Source: Halomarina ordinaria
GTDB taxonomy: Archaea; Halobacteriota; Halobacteria; Halobacteriales; Haloarculaceae
NCBI RefSeq assembly: GCF_030553305.1
Contig: NZ_JARRAH010000001.1
Span: 930,001 to 994,000 of the forward strand
Direction: 5' to 3'
DNA: 64,000 nucleotides
The position numbers and the translations under genes were made by a program. The notes beneath the pieces were generated by a model, which was not told the DNA's origin, did no database searches, and saw nothing but the letters and a program-made list of their open reading frames with translations. Positions 2,787 through 32,879 of the stretch are shown piece after piece; position 1 is the first letter of the stretch; each line of letters opens with the position of its first letter.

Positions 2787-3443
2787 ATGCACGCCATCAC
2801 CAACAGCGGGTGGGTCGAGGTCATCACCGGCTGTATGTTCTCCGGGAAGACCGAGGAGCTGTTGCGCCGGCTCCGCCGGGCGGAGATAGCGGGCCAGGAG
2901 GCCGCCGTCTTCACCCCGGCGGTCGACGACCGCTACGGCGAGACCACCATCGGCTCGCACGACGGCCACTCGTGGGCTGCGACCGTCGTCGACGACGGTC
3001 CCGACGCGAGCGACGAGCGACCCACGACCGACGGAGGCGTCGGGGCCGTCCGGTCGACCCCGGACGGTCGCGACGGCGCCTGGGGCATCCTCGACCACCT
3101 GAACGGCGAGCACGTGGTCGCCATCGACGAGGCGAACTTCTTCTCGACCGACCTCGTCGCGGTCTGTGAACACCTCGCGAGCGACGGCCGGCGCGTCATC
3201 GTCTCCGGCACCGACCAGACCTTCCGGGGCGAGCCGTTCGACCCCCTCCCGCAACTCGTCGCCGTCGCCGAGTACGTCGACAAGCTTCAGGCCATCTGCT
3301 CGGTCTGTGGCGAACCCGCCTCGCGCAACCAGCGACTCATCGACGGCGAACCCGCCCACGCCGACGACCCCACCATCCTCGTCGGCGCCGAGGAGAGCTA
3401 CGAGGCGCGCTGTCGGAGCTGTCACGTCCTGCGGACCGACTGA
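2787..3443 (+). CDS. tdk: Thymidine kinase (type II)
   Basis: Salvage enzyme phosphorylating thymidine with ATP. The Walker A motif GCMFSGKTEE is at residues 15-24, the metal-binding DEAN at 114-117, and the zinc-lasso cysteine pairs at 171/174 (CSVC) and 209/212 (CRSC). The thymidine-binding region includes SGTDQTFRG near residue 140. At 218 aa it is longer than the usual 190-195 aa. The excess is an acidic, Gly/Asp-rich insertion at about residues 69-98, between the nucleotide-binding strand and the DEAN strand. The ATG at 2787 is the only plausible start. It stands alone, downstream of the small 76-aa protein. Confidence 0.95.
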   Translation: MHAITNSGWVEVITGCMFSGKTEELLRRLRRAEIAGQEAAVFTPAVDDRYGETTIGSHDGHSWAATVVDDGPDASDERPTTDGGVGAVRSTPDGRDGAWGILDHLNGEHVVAIDEANFFSTDLVAVCEHLASDGRRVIVSGTDQTFRGEPFDPLPQLVAVAEYVDKLQAICSVCGEPASRNQRLIDGEPAHADDPTILVGAEESYEARCRSCHVLRTD

Positions 3444-3823: not shown

Positions 3824-4762
3824 TCACCCCGACAGCGTCGCCGCCACCCAGTCCGCGACGCCGTCCATCGCCTCGTCCGCGACGTCCACCGCCCCCGTGA
3901 GGCTCAGGAACCCGTGGACCATGCTCGGGTAGTGGTCGTGGTCGGCGGGCACGCCCGCCTCCGCCAGCCGGCGAGCGTAGGCCACTCCCTCGTCCCGCAA
4001 GGGGTCGAACCCGGCGGTGACGACGAGTGCCGGCGGGAGGCCCGAGAGGTCGCGTGCGCGAAGCGGCGCCGCGAAGGGGTTGTGCGCGTCGACGGGGCTC
4101 CGGAGGTACTGCTCCCAGAACCACGCGACGTCGCGACGGGTGAGCAGCGGGCCGTCGGCGTTCTCGTGGGTGGAGTCGGTGTCCTCGCGGTCGGCCATCG
4201 GATAACAGAGCAGCTGGCCGGCGAGCGTCGCGTCGAGGGACTCCTCGCGCGCACGCAGGGCGGTGACGGCCGCGAGGTTCCCGCCGGCGCTCGTCCCGCC
4301 CACGACGAGCCGAGCGGGGTCGCCCCCGAGGCTCGCCGCGTTCGCCCACACCCACTCGACGGCGGCGAAGGCGTCGTCGACCGCGGCGGGGAAGGGGCGT
4401 TCGGGCGCGAGGCGGTAGTCGACGCTCACGACGACACAACCGGCGCGCGTCGCGAGGTCCCGGCAGACGCCGTCGACGGAGTCGAGCGTCCCGAGCACCC
4501 AGCCGCCGCCGTGGTAGAAGACGAGGACGGGCCGCGGTTCGTCGAGCGTCGGTCGGTAGACGCGGACCGGAACCGACCCACCGGGGCCGTCGAACGCGAG
4601 GTCCCGGACCAGCGGCAGGTCGACGCGCACCTCGCCGCCGAAGACGTCGTCCTCGACACGGCGGGCGCAGTCGACGCTCATCGCGTGCCACTCGGGGACG
4701 CCGGTCCGGACGAGTTCGTCGACGACGGCGCTCACCTGCGGGTCGGGGGCGTCGGCGCGCAT
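3824..4762 (-). CDS. Alpha/beta hydrolase, HSL (hormone-sensitive lipase) family
   Basis: A 312-aa esterase/lipase-like hydrolase. It has the HSL oxyanion motif HGGG at residues 84-87, the nucleophile elbow GTSAG with Ser158, a catalytic Asp in GFDPLRDEG (about 253) and His283 in MVHGF, so the triad is complete. SVDYRLAPERPFPAA between the oxyanion motif and the nucleophile is typical of the family. The start at 4762 (MRADAPDPQV) is preferred over an upstream extension. It is divergent from kynureninase with only 81 bp between the starts. Arylformamidases of the kynurenine pathway belong to related HGGxW-type hydrolases, so a formamidase role is possible but unproven. A paralog is at 35398-36339. 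Confidence 0.85.
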   Translation of the reverse strand: MRADAPDPQVSAVVDELVRTGVPEWHAMSVDCARRVEDDVFGGEVRVDLPLVRDLAFDGPGGSVPVRVYRPTLDEPRPVLVFYHGGGWVLGTLDSVDGVCRDLATRAGCVVVSVDYRLAPERPFPAAVDDAFAAVEWVWANAASLGGDPARLVVGGTSAGGNLAAVTALRAREESLDATLAGQLLCYPMADREDTDSTHENADGPLLTRRDVAWFWEQYLRSPVDAHNPFAAPLRARDLSGLPPALVVTAGFDPLRDEGVAYARRLAEAGVPADHDHYPSMVHGFLSLTGAVDVADEAMDGVADWVAATLSG

Positions 4763-4843: not shown

Positions 4844-6130
4844 ATGGTCACCGACACGGACCTCGCGGCGGCCCGCGAGGAGGCCCGCCGACGCGACGAG
4901 GCGGACTCACTCGCGGCGCTCCGCGAGCGCTTTCACGTCCCCGACGGCGCGCTCTACCTCGACGGCAACTCGCTCGGCCCGCTCTCCGCGGACGCCGAGC
5001 GGACGCTCACGCGCGTCGTCGAGGAGTGGCGCGAGCGGGGAATCCGCGGGTGGACCGACGCCGACCCGCCGTGGTTCGGCTACGCCGAGCACCTCGGCGA
5101 GCGCCTCGCGCCGCTGGTCGGCGCCGACCCCGAAGAGGTGGTCGGCGCCAACTCGACGACGGTGAACATCCACACCCTCGTCGGCACGTTCTACGACGAG
5201 TGCGAGGGGACGCCCTCGATACTCGTCGACGACCTCGACTTCCCCACCGACCACTACGCCATCCGCGCGCAACTCCGTCACCGAGGACTCGACCCGGACG
5301 ACCACCTCGTCGTCGTCGAGAGCCGCGACGGGCGCACGATAGCCGAGGCCGACATCGAGCGCGCGCTCGACGAGCACGACGTCGGCCTCGTGTTCCTCCC
5401 GAGCGTGCTCTACCGAAGCGGGCAGTTGCTCGACCTCCCGCGCATCACCCGCGCGGCCCACGAGCACGGGTCGCTCTTCGGGTTCGACCTCGCGCACTCC
5501 GTCGGCGTCGTCCCGCACGACCTCTCGGCGTACGGCGTCGACTTCGCCGTCTGGTGCAGCTACAAGTACCTCAACGCGGGGCCGGGCGCCGTCGCGGGGC
5601 TCTACGTGAACCGCGAGCACTTCGGGACGACGCCCGCGCTCGCCGGCTGGTGGGGCCACGAGAAGGAGACGCAGTTCGACATGGCGATGACCTACACCCC
5701 GGCGCACGGCGCCGGCGCGTGGCAGACCGGCACGGTCCCGATGCTCAGCGCCGCCCCGCTGGAGGGCGCCCTCGACGTCCTCGAGGACGCCGGCATCGAA
5801 GCCGTCCGCGAGAAGTCCGTCGCCCTCACCGACTTCCTCGTCGACCTCGTCGACGAACACCTCCCCGAGTGCGACGTCGGGACGCCGCGCGACCCGGCAC
5901 GCCGCGGCGGACACGTCGCCGTCGAGCACCCGGACGCCGCGCGGGTGAGCCGCGCGCTGAAGGCGCGGAACGTCGTCGTCGACTTCCGTCGCCCGAACGT
6001 CGTCCGGGTCTGTCCCGCGCCGCTGTACGTCGGCTACGAGGAGTGCGTCGAGTTCGTCGCTCACCTCCGGGCGGTCCTCGACGACCGCGAGTACGAGCGC
6101 GTCGACGCACGGGACGGTCGCGTGACCTGA
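4844..6130 (+). CDS. kynU: Kynureninase
   Basis: PLP-dependent hydrolase converting L-kynurenine to anthranilate and alanine (or 3-hydroxykynurenine to 3-hydroxyanthranilate). The 428-aa protein matches the usual family length. It shows YLDGNSLGPL near residue 38, the cofactor Asp region FDLAHSVG at about 214-221, and the Schiff-base lysine K241 in WCSYKYLNAGPG. The later GWWGHEKETQFDM motif is characteristic of kynureninase rather than cysteine desulfurase. The open frame extends 310 codons upstream, but this is antisense to the hydrolase gene; ATG 4844 (MVTDTDLAAA) is the natural start. No tryptophan dioxygenase gene is visible in the window. Confidence 0.93.
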   Translation: MVTDTDLAAAREEARRRDEADSLAALRERFHVPDGALYLDGNSLGPLSADAERTLTRVVEEWRERGIRGWTDADPPWFGYAEHLGERLAPLVGADPEEVVGANSTTVNIHTLVGTFYDECEGTPSILVDDLDFPTDHYAIRAQLRHRGLDPDDHLVVVESRDGRTIAEADIERALDEHDVGLVFLPSVLYRSGQLLDLPRITRAAHEHGSLFGFDLAHSVGVVPHDLSAYGVDFAVWCSYKYLNAGPGAVAGLYVNREHFGTTPALAGWWGHEKETQFDMAMTYTPAHGAGAWQTGTVPMLSAAPLEGALDVLEDAGIEAVREKSVALTDFLVDLVDEHLPECDVGTPRDPARRGGHVAVEHPDAARVSRALKARNVVVDFRRPNVVRVCPAPLYVGYEECVEFVAHLRAVLDDREYERVDARDGRVT

Positions 6131-25062: not shown

Positions 25063-25659
25063 GTGACTCGTGACGACCGAACCGTGGTGAAGACGTACGT
25101 GCCCCGGTACCAGAAAGACGAGTGGGTGGACCACGCCGATGCCCTCGACATGAGCCAGAGCGAGTTCCTCCGGACGATGGTGCAGGCGGGTCGGCGGGGG
25201 TTCGACGTCGAGGCCGAGGAACCCCCTTCTGCGGACGCAACCCCCAGGGGTCACGGGCTGGAAGACCGGGTCCTCGAACTGCTCCGCCGGGAGGGCTATC
25301 TGAACTGGGAGGAACTGCTCTCCGCGCTCACGGGCGGCCTCGAGGACCGACTGGACGACGCGCTCGGCCGCCTCCAGGAGGAGGGACGGGTCAGATACAG
25401 CGGCCGCCACGACGGTTACGCCGTGGTCGGCGAGCCCCCCGACCAGTCCGAGCGACCCAGCGACCGAGGGGGTGAGCGCGAGGGCCGGACCGCCCAGCAC
25501 GAGGACCGTCGCTACCGCGAGCGCGGTCGACGGAGGGACGGGGCGACCGACCGCCGTCGCGACGACCCGCCCGGACGGCGGACGCCGCCGTCGCAGGGCG
25601 ACGAGTGGGACGGGAACGGAGACGTCCGGAATCGTCGGGGCGAGTACCGTGAGCGGTGA
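25063..25659 (+). CDS. DUF5805-like protein encoded next to the integrase
   Basis: GTG 25063 gives MTRDDRTVVKTYVPRYQKDE, then ADALDMSQSEFLRTMVQAGR. This resembles a ribbon-helix-helix-type opening, and I associate the pattern with haloarchaeal DUF5805 proteins. A winged-helix-like segment follows (LEDRVLELLRREGYLNWEEL to LQEEGRVRYSGRHDGYAVV). The last 75 residues are a run of Arg, Asp and Gly (RRDGATDRRRDDPPGRRTP), unlike the rest; the ancestral protein may have ended near residue 125. The gene overlaps the integrase start by 11 bp. A DNA-binding or accessory role for the recombinase is likely from context. Confidence 0.65.
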   Translation: MTRDDRTVVKTYVPRYQKDEWVDHADALDMSQSEFLRTMVQAGRRGFDVEAEEPPSADATPRGHGLEDRVLELLRREGYLNWEELLSALTGGLEDRLDDALGRLQEEGRVRYSGRHDGYAVVGEPPDQSERPSDRGGEREGRTAQHEDRRYRERGRRRDGATDRRRDDPPGRRTPPSQGDEWDGNGDVRNRRGEYRER

Positions 25660-26680
25660 ACGCCCGGTCGAGGAGGTTCCCGACCCGGTCGAGTACTTCC
25701 TCGAGGACCTCACCTACCACGGACGCTCCGAGCGGACGCGCACCGCCTACGAGCGCGTCCTCCGTCGGTTCGAGGCGTTCCTGGCGGAGCGGGGGACCAC
25801 GCCGGCGGACGCCGACCGTCGCGTGTGTCTGGCGTGGGTCCACGGCGTCCGCGCGGACCACGCTCCGAGCACGGTGGCGACCTACGCGACGTACGTCCAC
25901 CGGTTCTACGGCTACATGACGCAGGCCGGCGTCTTCGACGCCAATCCGATGGCGCTCGTGATGGCGGAGATGGACGAATCGGTCGACACGGACCCCGAGC
26001 GTCGGGAACTCGGCGTGAGCGCGATGCGGACGTTCGTCGCGAGCGTCACCCACCCGCTCGAACGCGCCGTGATCCTCACGCTGTTGAAGACCGGCATGCG
26101 CGTCGGCGAGGCGTGCAACCTCGACCTCCGGGACGTCCACCTCTCGCCGGCGGTCCACGACGCCTTCGACGTCCCACCCCGACCGCAGCTCGACAACCGT
26201 CCGGACTCGGTGTACGTCGCCAGCGACGTCGCCCGCGGGCAGGTCGTCGACGGCGAGGAGCGTACCGCCTCCAACAAGCGAAAACGGGCGACGGTCGTGC
26301 CGGTCGACGCCGAACTCCGGCGCGCGCTCGTCCGGTGGTTGACCATCCGGCCCGACGCGCGCTCGCCCGCCGAACCGCTGTTCGTCAGTACCGGCGAGGA
26401 GTGGGGCGAGCGTCTCACGACGGGGCAGGTCCGAACGGTCGTCCGACGCCACGCGGAAGCCCACGGCTGGTACCGGACGGGCGGCGGCGCGACGGAGAAC
26501 GTCACGCCACACTACTTCCGGCACTTCTTCACGACCCACCTCCGGGACCGGACGGGCGACCGCGGCATCGTGAAGTATCTCCGAGGGGACGTGGCGACGG
26601 ACATCATCGACACCTACACCCACAACTGGGGCGACCGCGTGCGCGAGGTGTACGAGGCGAACATCTACGCGCTGGAGTGA
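25649..26680 (+). CDS. Tyrosine recombinase / integrase (XerC/D type)
   Basis: A 343-aa site-specific recombinase starting at GTG 25649 (MSGERPVEEV). The N-terminal SAM-like core-binding domain covers about 12-110 (YFLEDLTYHGRSERTRTAY). The catalytic set is complete: Arg151 in TGMRVGEACNL, a lysine in SNKRKRATVVPV (about 209-211), His287 and Arg290 in HYFRHFF, His324 in YTHNW and the Tyr334 nucleophile in REVYEANIY. Chromosomal Xer-like proteins and integrases of mobile elements both look like this. The adjacent DUF5805-like gene and flanking AT-rich repeats leave both options open. Confidence 0.9.
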   Translation: MSGERPVEEVPDPVEYFLEDLTYHGRSERTRTAYERVLRRFEAFLAERGTTPADADRRVCLAWVHGVRADHAPSTVATYATYVHRFYGYMTQAGVFDANPMALVMAEMDESVDTDPERRELGVSAMRTFVASVTHPLERAVILTLLKTGMRVGEACNLDLRDVHLSPAVHDAFDVPPRPQLDNRPDSVYVASDVARGQVVDGEERTASNKRKRATVVPVDAELRRALVRWLTIRPDARSPAEPLFVSTGEEWGERLTTGQVRTVVRRHAEAHGWYRTGGGATENVTPHYFRHFFTTHLRDRTGDRGIVKYLRGDVATDIIDTYTHNWGDRVREVYEANIYALE

Positions 26681-26948: not shown

Positions 26949-27173
26949 TTACTCCGTCGTCTCGTGCGGGAGCGTCGGCATGAGCCGTCGCGCAACCGAC
27001 AGGAACGGTTTCAACAGGAGGCCAGCAGCGACGAGGAAGACCAGAACCGCCACACCTGCTGACGCACCCATCTCATGTGCTCCAACCGCAACGGCTCCCG
27101 CGAGTCCGACGTAGACCCAGAACACCACGACGACGGGGAAGAACCCGTGTGTTGGCGCGGGAGTTTCGTACAT
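26949..27173 (-). CDS. Small two-helix membrane protein (74 aa)
   Basis: ATG at 27173 (MYETPAPTHG), then two hydrophobic stretches: FFPVVVVFWVYVGLAGAVAVG and AGVAVLVFLVAAGLLLKPFL, with a charged tail. AT-rich sequence (CTATAGGGACATTATAG) directly upstream would provide a TATA box for a leaderless mRNA. Unknown function; similar short membrane proteins are common in haloarchaeal accessory regions. Confidence 0.6.
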   Translation of the reverse strand: MYETPAPTHGFFPVVVVFWVYVGLAGAVAVGAHEMGASAGVAVLVFLVAAGLLLKPFLSVARRLMPTLPHETTE

Positions 27174-27219: not shown

Positions 27220-27553
27220 TCAGCTGAACCGTCCGCGTACCGACTCACAGAGACGCACTCGCGGAACACCTCGAACAACGAGTGACCCCGGGCCGAGCCG
27301 GAGCGAACCGGCGTGTCGGTTGCCGCTATCGGGAGCCGCTGAGCGTCGGTCTACCATCCGTTCAGGTGGAGGGTCGTCGGCTATTCCGACGAGAAACCAG
27401 ACGACGGAGAGGCCAGCCAGCGGGGAGGTCGCGCCAGCGATCCCGAGGAACGACTGTGTCGTCGACAGCGAGCGCGAAGAACAGTGCGACCAGCGCGAGC
27501 AGCCACGCTCCGACCAGCAGCCACTCGGTCGTCGTCGACTGTTCGCGTTCCAT
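27220..27553 (-). pseudogene. Frameshifted small membrane protein gene
   Basis: From ATG 27551-27553 the frame reads MEREQSTTTEWLLVGAWLLA, continuing through a hydrophobic helix to AVDDTVV, then degenerates into PRDRWRDLPAGWPLRR. The adjacent frame at the same place reads LGIAGATSPLAGLSVVWFLV, a second helix followed by GIADDPPPERMVDRR. Removing one T near 27446-27452 would join them into DDTVVLGIAGATSP, a normal two-helix protein. It is either a true frameshift or a sequence error. Length when joined is about 110 aa; function unknown. Confidence 0.55.
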
Positions 27554-31633: not shown

Positions 31634-31722
31634 ATCGGGGCCAGTCGCGCCAGGCACGTCAATCCACCTTTTATCCACGACCGGGGGCCGAAGACCCCCG
31701 GAGGGTAAAATCTGGACCAAAA
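31634..31722. promoter_or_regulatory. Promoter and GC hairpin upstream of UlaG-like gene
   Basis: On the minus strand GGATAAAAGG sits about 35-45 nt upstream of the ATG at 31633 and serves as the TATA candidate. Next to it, 31681-31701 forms a GC hairpin (CCGGGGG / CCCCCGG arms, short CGAAGA-type loop). The hairpin lies between the gene and the left arm of the 77-bp inverted repeat. Confidence 0.5.
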
Positions 31723-31799
31723 GGCTTCCCTCACCCCCTCAGTCGCGTCGCTCCTTCGAGGGTTCGGTCACCCCGCTCGGCGCGTGCGCGCCTCGCGGT
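31723..31799 (+). repeat. Left arm of 77-bp inverted repeat
   Basis: From GGCTTCCCTCACCCCCTCAG to GCGCCTCGCGGT. It is the reverse complement of 32720-32796 with two substitutions (75 of 77 positions). The arm ends sharply on both sides: flanking bases do not match. It encloses, with its partner, an AT-richer 920-bp segment. Confidence 0.85.
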
Positions 31800-32015
31800 A
31801 CGACACGCAGTATCACCGCACTGCAGTGGTTGTCGGTATTGGTAGACTGGTGCCGCGAGTGTATCGACCAGCAACTCGCCGAGTCTCAGGTTCCACCCTG
31901 TTCGGGTGGCGATCAAGTCGGATCATCTCATATTTTTCCGGGGCTACTCGGCGGTGGCGTGGGTGGGCGTCTGGTGTGACGACAGATATAGGACGATATA
32001 TCTGAACATCGGGAA
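31800..32015. other. Non-coding stretch inside the inverted-repeat island
   Basis: No gene supported. Composition becomes AT-richer than the chromosome average after about 31920 (CATATTTTTCCGG). CAGATATA (31983-31990) and TATATCTG (31997-32004) form a perfect 8-bp inverted repeat with a 6-bp spacer, just beyond the stop codon of the 66-aa membrane protein gene, where it could act in termination or as a protein-binding site. Confidence 0.5.
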
Positions 32016-32216
32016 TTAAAGCCCAGTTCGTTCAGACAGTACTATCCAGACTGCGAGTCCGAGAAAGATCCCCATACCGGCCCCCATGGGACCGATAAGA
32101 GGATTTCCGGTGATGAATCCGGTTGAAAAACCGAGCATCATCCCGATAATAATACCGAAGGCTATGCAATAGGCGAGTAGCTCATCGTCGCTTAATCCTT
32201 CGGCGAATTTGACCAT
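32016..32216 (-). CDS. 66-aa two-helix membrane protein inside the inverted-repeat island
   Basis: ATG 32216 gives MVKFAEGLSDDELLAYCIAF, then two hydrophobic stretches (AYCIAFGIIIGMMLGFSTGF and GPMGAGMGIFLGLAVWIVLS) joined by ITGNPLI, ending ERTGL. Codon use is AT-richer than in neighbouring genes, which suggests recent arrival. A TATA-like GATATTC lies near 32240 on this strand. I do not recognise the family. It is the only convincing gene between the two repeat arms. Confidence 0.65.
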   Translation of the reverse strand: MVKFAEGLSDDELLAYCIAFGIIIGMMLGFSTGFITGNPLIGPMGAGMGIFLGLAVWIVLSERTGL

Positions 32217-32525
32217 GCCTCTGAGTGGAAAACAAGCAGAATATCTCTTCCTGTAAGTGATCTCTGTTGAATCGGCTCTCCGGTGTGGTCCACCTTCTCA
32301 TCTCCATCGACGAATTCAGGACGAGAAGTACAGAACAGAATCAGTAGTGAAACACGCACGCTCTCTGTCTACCAAACGCGGCAATCGATGCACTGGCTCG
32401 TTCCCCGGAAAGAAGTAGCGATTCGACAGTAGCTTCGTCGCTCGTGTGACGGTACAGTGGACACTCCGGGTTCCACTTCAGTGTGAGAGCGCAGTCGCTC
32501 TTCGAGTGTAGAGATAGACGGGGTA
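32217..32525. other. AT-richer stretch, no supported gene
   Basis: Part of the inverted-repeat island. A minus-strand frame of 66 codons at 32341-32541 has no recognisable domain and enters the hairpin region, so I do not call it. The composition and short-range repeats (GTGAGAG, GAGTGTAGAG) differ from the flanking chromosome. Confidence 0.4.
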
Positions 32526-32584
32526 GGTCAGGCAGCGGCAACTACACGTGGAAACCACGTGAGTCGAAAGGTGGCTGCCTGACC
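32526..32584 (+). ncRNA. Nested hairpin, possible structured RNA or element end
   Basis: Outer arms GGTCAGGCAGC (32526-32536) and GCTGCCTGACC (32574-32584) are perfectly complementary over 11 bp. Inside, CACGTGG (32545-32551) and CCACGTG (32555-32561) pair with an AAA loop, extended by ACT/AGT across one bulged A. The two stems are joined by an internal loop (GGCA on one side, CGAAAGGTG on the other). The order is too regular for chance, but whether it is transcribed is unknown. Confidence 0.45.
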
Positions 32585-32719
32585 GTGCCGTCTCTCACCT
32601 CCTACCAGCTATCGACGTAAAGCCTCTGCGGTACGCCGCGATGGCGGGTACGGTGTGTGTCAAGTGTACTCGGGTATTCCACTGCGTGGCGTCCGCGCGA
32701 GTGCAAACGAACGCGGTTC

Positions 32720-32796
32720 ACCGCGAGGCGCGCACGCGTCGAGCGGGGCGACCGAACCCTCGAAGGAGCGACGCGACTGAGGGGGTGAGGGAAGCC
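32720..32796 (-). repeat. Right arm of 77-bp inverted repeat
   Basis: Begins ACCGCGAGGCGCGCACGCG and ends GAGGGAAGCC. Its reverse complement equals 31723-31799 except at two positions. No coding sequence crosses it convincingly, although both arms translate to similar Pro/Arg/Ser-rich peptides in one frame. Confidence 0.85.
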
Positions 32797-32809
32797 GTTC
32801 AGTCCCATT

Positions 32810-32859
32810 GTGAGACGCTTCGCGTCTCACAGGCTCCCAGCAAGCGAAGCTTCTGGGAG
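32810..32859. terminator. Two tandem hairpins downstream of the YlbF gene
   Basis: First stem GTGAGACGC-TTC-GCGTCTCAC (32810-32830) is perfect over 9 bp. The second (32834-32859) pairs CTCCCAG with CTGGGAG and AAGC with GCTT around GAA, with one bulged C. They lie just past the stop of the YlbF family gene and just outside the right repeat arm. They may stop transcription or be remnants of the repeat element. Confidence 0.45.
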
Positions 32860-32879
32860 AGCGTTTACCCGGTGGGTGG

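Follow-up and report, generated by a model that had tools for sequence, protein, structure and literature searches.

A 1.07-kb AT-rich island of Halomarina ordinaria (31723-32796 of the window, the whole 64,000-nucleotide stretch analyzed here) is likely a composite with a mobile core, a single-gene cassette (31841-32373) that belongs to an integron-like haloarchaeal system. No natural gene-capture machine is better known than the integron, and, to our knowledge, integrons have been described with IntI integrases only. On balance, the evidence tips toward a haloarchaeal gene-capture system of an origin independent of IntI integrons, in which a small non-IntI tyrosine recombinase with half-sites on either side would assemble and exchange cassette arrays by way of long palindromic sites, and, separately, toward an undescribed ncRNA family of the Halobacteriales.

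Architecture of the island

The island is flanked by a metallo-beta-lactamase-type gene on one side and a YlbF-type gene on the other. The YlbF gene is present in 8/8 Halomarina genomes, and within the fetched stretches the lactamase gene stands beside it in 7/8. The interval separating the two genes is hypervariable: it measures ~130 bp in G004, holds other small genes in most of the remaining Halomarina, and in H. oriensis contains a lipoprotein gene whose two bordering ends are similar to inner sequences of our island. A cassette of this system consists of one small AT-rich gene between two unlike ends, LE and RE. The island and its right-hand neighbor contain the following features:

31723..31799, plus strand: left 77-bp arm, a copy of a dispersed Halomarina extragenic repeat
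31812..31840, plus strand: outer half of the left cassette end, LE-type outer sequence TTGTCGGTATT
31841..31866, plus strand: left cassette end, box GGTAGAC and RE-type inner repeat
31841..32373, minus strand: single-gene cassette, box to box (533 bp)
32016..32216, minus strand: 66-aa two-helix membrane protein, the cassette cargo
32348..32395, minus strand: right cassette end, with LE inner repeat, box GGTAGAC (32367-32373), and LE outer sequence
32491..32595, minus strand: conserved structured ncRNA gene, supported by covariation
32608..32634, minus strand: ncRNA upstream element, consensus gtACCGGAGGnGTTTTgta, TATA-like at ~-27
32720..32796, minus strand: right 77-bp arm, an inverted copy of the left-arm repeat
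~32805-32862: second hairpin repeat, after the right arm, TGTGAGACG..CGTCTCACA, CTCCCAG..CTGGGAG

A first-pass annotation of this DNA had singled out the two arms as the apparent boundaries of a non-autonomous mobile unit or a small defense/toxin-type cassette. The arms are reverse complements at 75/77 positions, as described, and a weaker pairing extends to 81/86. Exact inverted matches within the 5-kb region reach 47 nt, whereas 30 first-order Markov simulations produced none longer than 15. The sharp loss of identity reported for both ends of the arms holds at the inner end, but the outer end decays over ~9 nt, and the left arm is part of a composite beginning near 31665. Copies of the arm occur elsewhere in the window's genome and tens of times in Halomarina relatives, singly and in direct or inverted order, at many intergenic sites and always with degenerate sequence.

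It is very unlikely that the 1.07-kb segment is a mobile unit with a small gene and with the arms as its terminal repeats. The 97% complementarity of the arms would suit such a unit, and the cassette at L309/L319 also lies within inverted arms; however, copies of the arm family stand single and direct at many intergenic sites, and at L309/L319 (downstream of aIF2-beta in H. oriensis and H. rubra) the flanks including the arms are conserved with 85.8% identity, the homology ends at the LE and RE ends, and only the inner cassettes differ. Judged by this distribution, the arms represent a family of dispersed intergenic repeats with its own hairpins, are not mobile-unit ends, and would be static repeats surrounding a cassette landing site. 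They behave like REP-like extragenic palindromic repeats, with the difference that here a cassette and an ncRNA gene happen to lie between two inverted copies. The island nevertheless does contain a non-autonomous mobile unit, the ends of which are short inner sites rather than the 77-bp arms, namely the repeats at 31841-31866 and 32348-32373 that the first-pass annotation had missed. The second hairpin repeat is itself dispersed in Halomarina and also adjoins an arm copy at L003 1447-1501.

The 920-bp interior is comparatively AT-rich, as previously noted (GC down to ~0.51-0.58 vs 0.70 for the window), and the cassette interior (31871-32346) has 50.6% GC. The 66-aa two-helix membrane protein was confirmed as an ORF at 32016-32216; it belongs to no Pfam family and has no relative in 146 genomes of the host's taxonomic family. 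No defense or toxin family matches the window cassette or nine other proteins tested. The left end of the cassette is a hybrid, with LE outer and RE inner sequence. At the right end, the site match reaches 32438 (E 2e-11), the RE portion being only partly conserved.

The window contains a second, degenerate site:

27253..27357, plus strand: degenerate cassette site (E 6e-7)

A 74-aa two-helix ORF (26949-27173, minus strand) adjoins this site, and the two probably constitute a remnant cassette. The window's XerA-like recombinase (25472-26680, plus strand), which is encoded near a cassette site, was considered as the integrase and rejected: the gene occurs in 8/8 Halomarina, including cassette-free ones, and is thus probably housekeeping.

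Cassettes, sites, and arrays

The inner parts of LE and RE are imperfect inverted repeats beside a 7-bp box, GTTAGAC. Where cassettes abut, RE and LE together form a ~107-bp palindromic, attC-like site; in H. rubra, complete sites of this kind separate single small genes in tandem, and the half-sites to which we give the names LE and RE are carried at array ends. Folding three versions of the site as a single strand gave z values of -5.1, -3.2, and -1.8, and the RE-LE site may fold as single-stranded DNA in the fashion of an integron attC. A site-family profile yielded 138 matches at E<0.01 in Halomarina loci and 110 matches at >=20 bits in these loci (~190 kb), whereas no score exceeded 11.2 bits in shuffled sequence or 9.3 bits in 1.15 Mb of further haloarchaeal sequence.

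As many as 6-7 sites occur in one array, and the cargo includes lipoproteins, membrane proteins, VapBC, and others. We scored 61 cassettes in the Halomarina loci examined (~58 distinct, as at least three were counted on both strands), with a median interior of 557 bp and a GC content of 0.555. Outside the window, genes were called by open frame and composition. Typical cargoes are twin-arginine lipoproteins and two-helix membrane proteins of 49-96 aa, like that of the window, and one cassette elsewhere encodes a VapB-type antitoxin together with a PIN-domain protein. Many of the cargo genes encode lipoproteins that begin alike, which would suit ends that serve as conserved promoters or terminators of a small-protein gene family instead of mobile ends. 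We regard this reading as highly implausible, however, given that the proteins carried are not related to one another, that with respect to the ends both orientations are found (27 vs 15), and that homology between species stops at the ends.

Outside the genus, sites were sought by covariance searches in which at most 9-10 candidates per genome were scored for each model, so that true numbers may be higher than those counted and a missing hit is weak evidence of absence. Only three non-Halomarina genomes with cassette sites were found among these candidates, G442 being one; Halocatena salina is another site-bearing genome outside Halomarina. The sites of G442 form a separate family and are arrayed in fours or fives. 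In this haloarchaeon of another family, loci L425, L426, and L430 display their own ~120-bp cassette-site subtype in arrays. No cassette sites were detected in phages and viral contigs. A 10.8-kb Halomarina plasmid (NZ_CP100453.1, L358) carries one cassette at 1370-2129 and is a possible vector for transfer between strains.

Evidence for movement

Genome comparisons suggest that these cassettes move. The pattern seen at L309/L319, in which one site holds different cargo and homology breaks at the ends, recurs at L313/L329 (orc-type locus), at L320/L323/L312 (DNA-binding-protein locus), and at L320/L311, on both sides of a recombinase. One cassette was also encountered in two places, as the YlbF-site cassette of H. 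oriensis and an array cassette of H. rubra (L171 vs L315) share 88.5% identity over 504/504 bp. On two BCD28 plasmids, the cassette starts right at the box within an unrelated flank. A search for an exact empty site was negative.

The ends themselves provide a finer record. Alongside 53 and 46 parental ends, we counted 10 ends joining LE outer to RE inner sequence and 7 with the reverse combination (REo-LEi). All told, 17 hybrid vs 99 parental ends were observed, and the switch at the 7-bp box GTTAGAC places the crossover there. A tyrosine recombinase would cut at or near this box and would move cassettes, probably as circles, into target sites.

Ordinary homologous recombination between dispersed repeats, with no dedicated recombination, could also yield pairs with the same site and different cargo, since all cassettes have common ends. 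Yet the shared homology amounts to only ~45-60 nt at ~75% identity, and tandem arrays with regular sites, hybrid ends at a 7-bp box, and a linked integrase would all be left unexplained. We consider this explanation improbable.

A linked tyrosine recombinase

A Pfam tyrosine-recombinase scan of Halomarina identified one such enzyme encoded in the segment between two facing RE half-sites. The candidate integrase genes are:

L320 3007-3822: integrase; RE ends at 3002 and begins again at 3826
L311 705-1520: integrase copy with one stop
L295 1299-2156: integrase copy

Gaps between an RE half-site and the recombinase are 2-45 bp in Halomarina and the haloarchaeon of another family. The integrase has ~270 aa, and its catalytic residues R91, K158, HxxR 217-220, W243, and Y252 are invariant in five homologues. 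In a comparison of 392 genomes, G442 (family f4) has the closest non-Halomarina homologue (76% over 240 aa), followed by one at 57%; the G442 integrase is likewise bordered by RE half-sites. Decayed integrase copies are found beside RE ends in H. rubra and H. oriensis. Inverted flanking sites surround the integrase in four cassette-bearing genomes, with scores of 40-57 vs shuffle maxima of 25-32, and are absent around 26 more distant homologues, except for an unrelated 24-nt repeat in L421. Integrase and cassettes co-occur with P ~7e-8, a value that overstates independence because three of the four integrase genomes belong to one genus. The window's genome and BCD28 contain cassettes and no integrase at E<=1e-20. 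With no close integrase copy, the cassettes of the window's genome would be relics or mobilizable only in trans.

This linkage bears on a further alternative, that a DDE or other transposase acting in trans mobilizes the cassettes as non-autonomous, MITE-like transposons, with arrays arising by adjacent insertion. The units do have terminal, partly inverted ends and lack a transposase of their own, and no transposase or recombinase appears among the cassette-protein families listed (25/69). However, we found no transposase-bearing element with the same ends, no target-site duplication is evident by eye at array ends (an exact empty site for comparison being absent), and a tyrosine recombinase has half-sites immediately beside it in two haloarchaeal families. 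A DDE gene is present in L313, outside any cassette. We judge a MITE-like origin to be unlikely.

Two further observations concern facing half-sites and integrase homologues. At L313 978-2227 and L329 1660-2860, the gene between the facing RE half-sites is orc1/cdc6-like, not an integrase, and array orientation may therefore relate to replication direction; origin-like repeats in the segment between the facing arrays were not convincing. In G047, a weak RE-like sequence (GCTGTTAGC..TATCA) was noticed by eye downstream of a 57%-identical integrase (L436, ~5341-5500). No significant inverted flanks were detected around this integrase (L399).

The recombinase is not recognizable as IntI. NCBIfam models returned only weak XerA/XerC/XerD-like matches (27 bits vs a cut-off of 220), and a PDB search of the integrase at E<=1 retrieved XerD only and no IntI. 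With its cassettes, palindromic sites, linked tyrosine recombinase, and exchange at fixed ends, the system would function like an integron. Because the integrase is not IntI-like and the box consensus is seen only in Halomarina, we term it an integron-like system.

A conserved structured RNA

A nested hairpin previously noted in the island (32529-32590) is real (folding z = -3.4) and proved to be part of a conserved ncRNA that had gone unrecognized. The RNA combines a GACGG/CCGUC stem, GGUC..GACC, a conserved ACCUUUC bulge, an CGUGGUUUCCACG apical hairpin, and a conserved 3' tail. Positions 32483-32640 of the window are conserved in other genera, and the conserved upstream element is likely the ncRNA's own promoter.

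Using a covariance model built from 12 copies, we detected the ncRNA in at least 120 of 392 haloarchaeal genomes (~31%) and at least 34 of 95 genera, nearly always as a single copy and with a clear gap before weaker matches. Carriers include Haloferax, Natrinema, Halorussus, Natronococcus, and Haloarcula species. The 101 copies examined are intergenic, except for a few overlaps with automatically called frames, and have no conserved neighbor gene, context being common only within small groups; five Halomarina genomes carry the ncRNA at five different sites. None was found on viruses, and outside chromosomes the ncRNA occurs on four megaplasmids only. Across 98 distinct sequences, 94% of cells pair, 11/25 pairs change on both sides, and every measure lies above all 500 shuffles and slid controls. 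The excess of G-U over A-C (216 vs 52) fixes the strand, and placement on the opposite strand was also rejected by RNAalifold (-10.5 vs -3.6). A search of Rfam 15 gave only an unrelated sub-threshold match at other coordinates. According to published reports, sRNA132 and s194 occur only in Haloferax, and both were rejected as identities for an ncRNA found in 34 genera. From the presence of its own promoter and the lack of a fixed neighbor, we infer that the ncRNA acts in trans. As an order-wide RNA family that includes the genus of the model Haloferax volcanii, its function is directly testable there.

Relation to known systems

Like bacterial integrons and CALINs, the haloarchaeal arrays are composed of tandem, small, single-gene cassettes with ~100-bp palindromic sites that may fold on one strand. 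The Halomarina boxes GTCTAAC/GTTAGAC fit the attC R boxes RYYYAAC/GTTRRRY, a tyrosine recombinase borders the arrays, sites are alike within a genome, and arrays without an integrase also exist, as in CALINs. The haloarchaeal integrase differs in being short and not recognized as IntI. The conserved inverted sequence extends beyond the boxes, array ends are often half-sites and the integrase has a half-site on either side, cargo is found in both orientations, and the G442 sites lack a box reading GTTRRRY. The RE half-sites 2-45 bp from the integrase gene are comparable with attI in position.

The pdif modules of Acinetobacter plasmids are Xer-dependent cassettes with 28-bp Xer sites. They too are small gene modules with inverted flanking recombination sites that are exchanged by a tyrosine recombinase, whereas the haloarchaeal sites measure ~107 bp and the window's Xer-like gene is found in every Halomarina genome, with or without cassettes.

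Archaeal integrons have been reported from metagenome-assembled genomes of nine phyla, with IntI-type integrases and attC-like cassette arrays that mostly lack an integrase (PMC9668308); the main text of that study does not mention Halobacteria or haloarchaea. Our arrays resemble those in being attC-like, archaeal, and mostly integrase-free, and differ in their recombinase, which is not of the IntI type.

If this interpretation is correct, the integron design would have evolved more than once, with a different integrase in haloarchaea. Much of the hypervariable small-protein content of haloarchaeal genomes would thereby be explained, and haloarchaea would offer a cultivable, genetically tractable archaeal model for gene capture.
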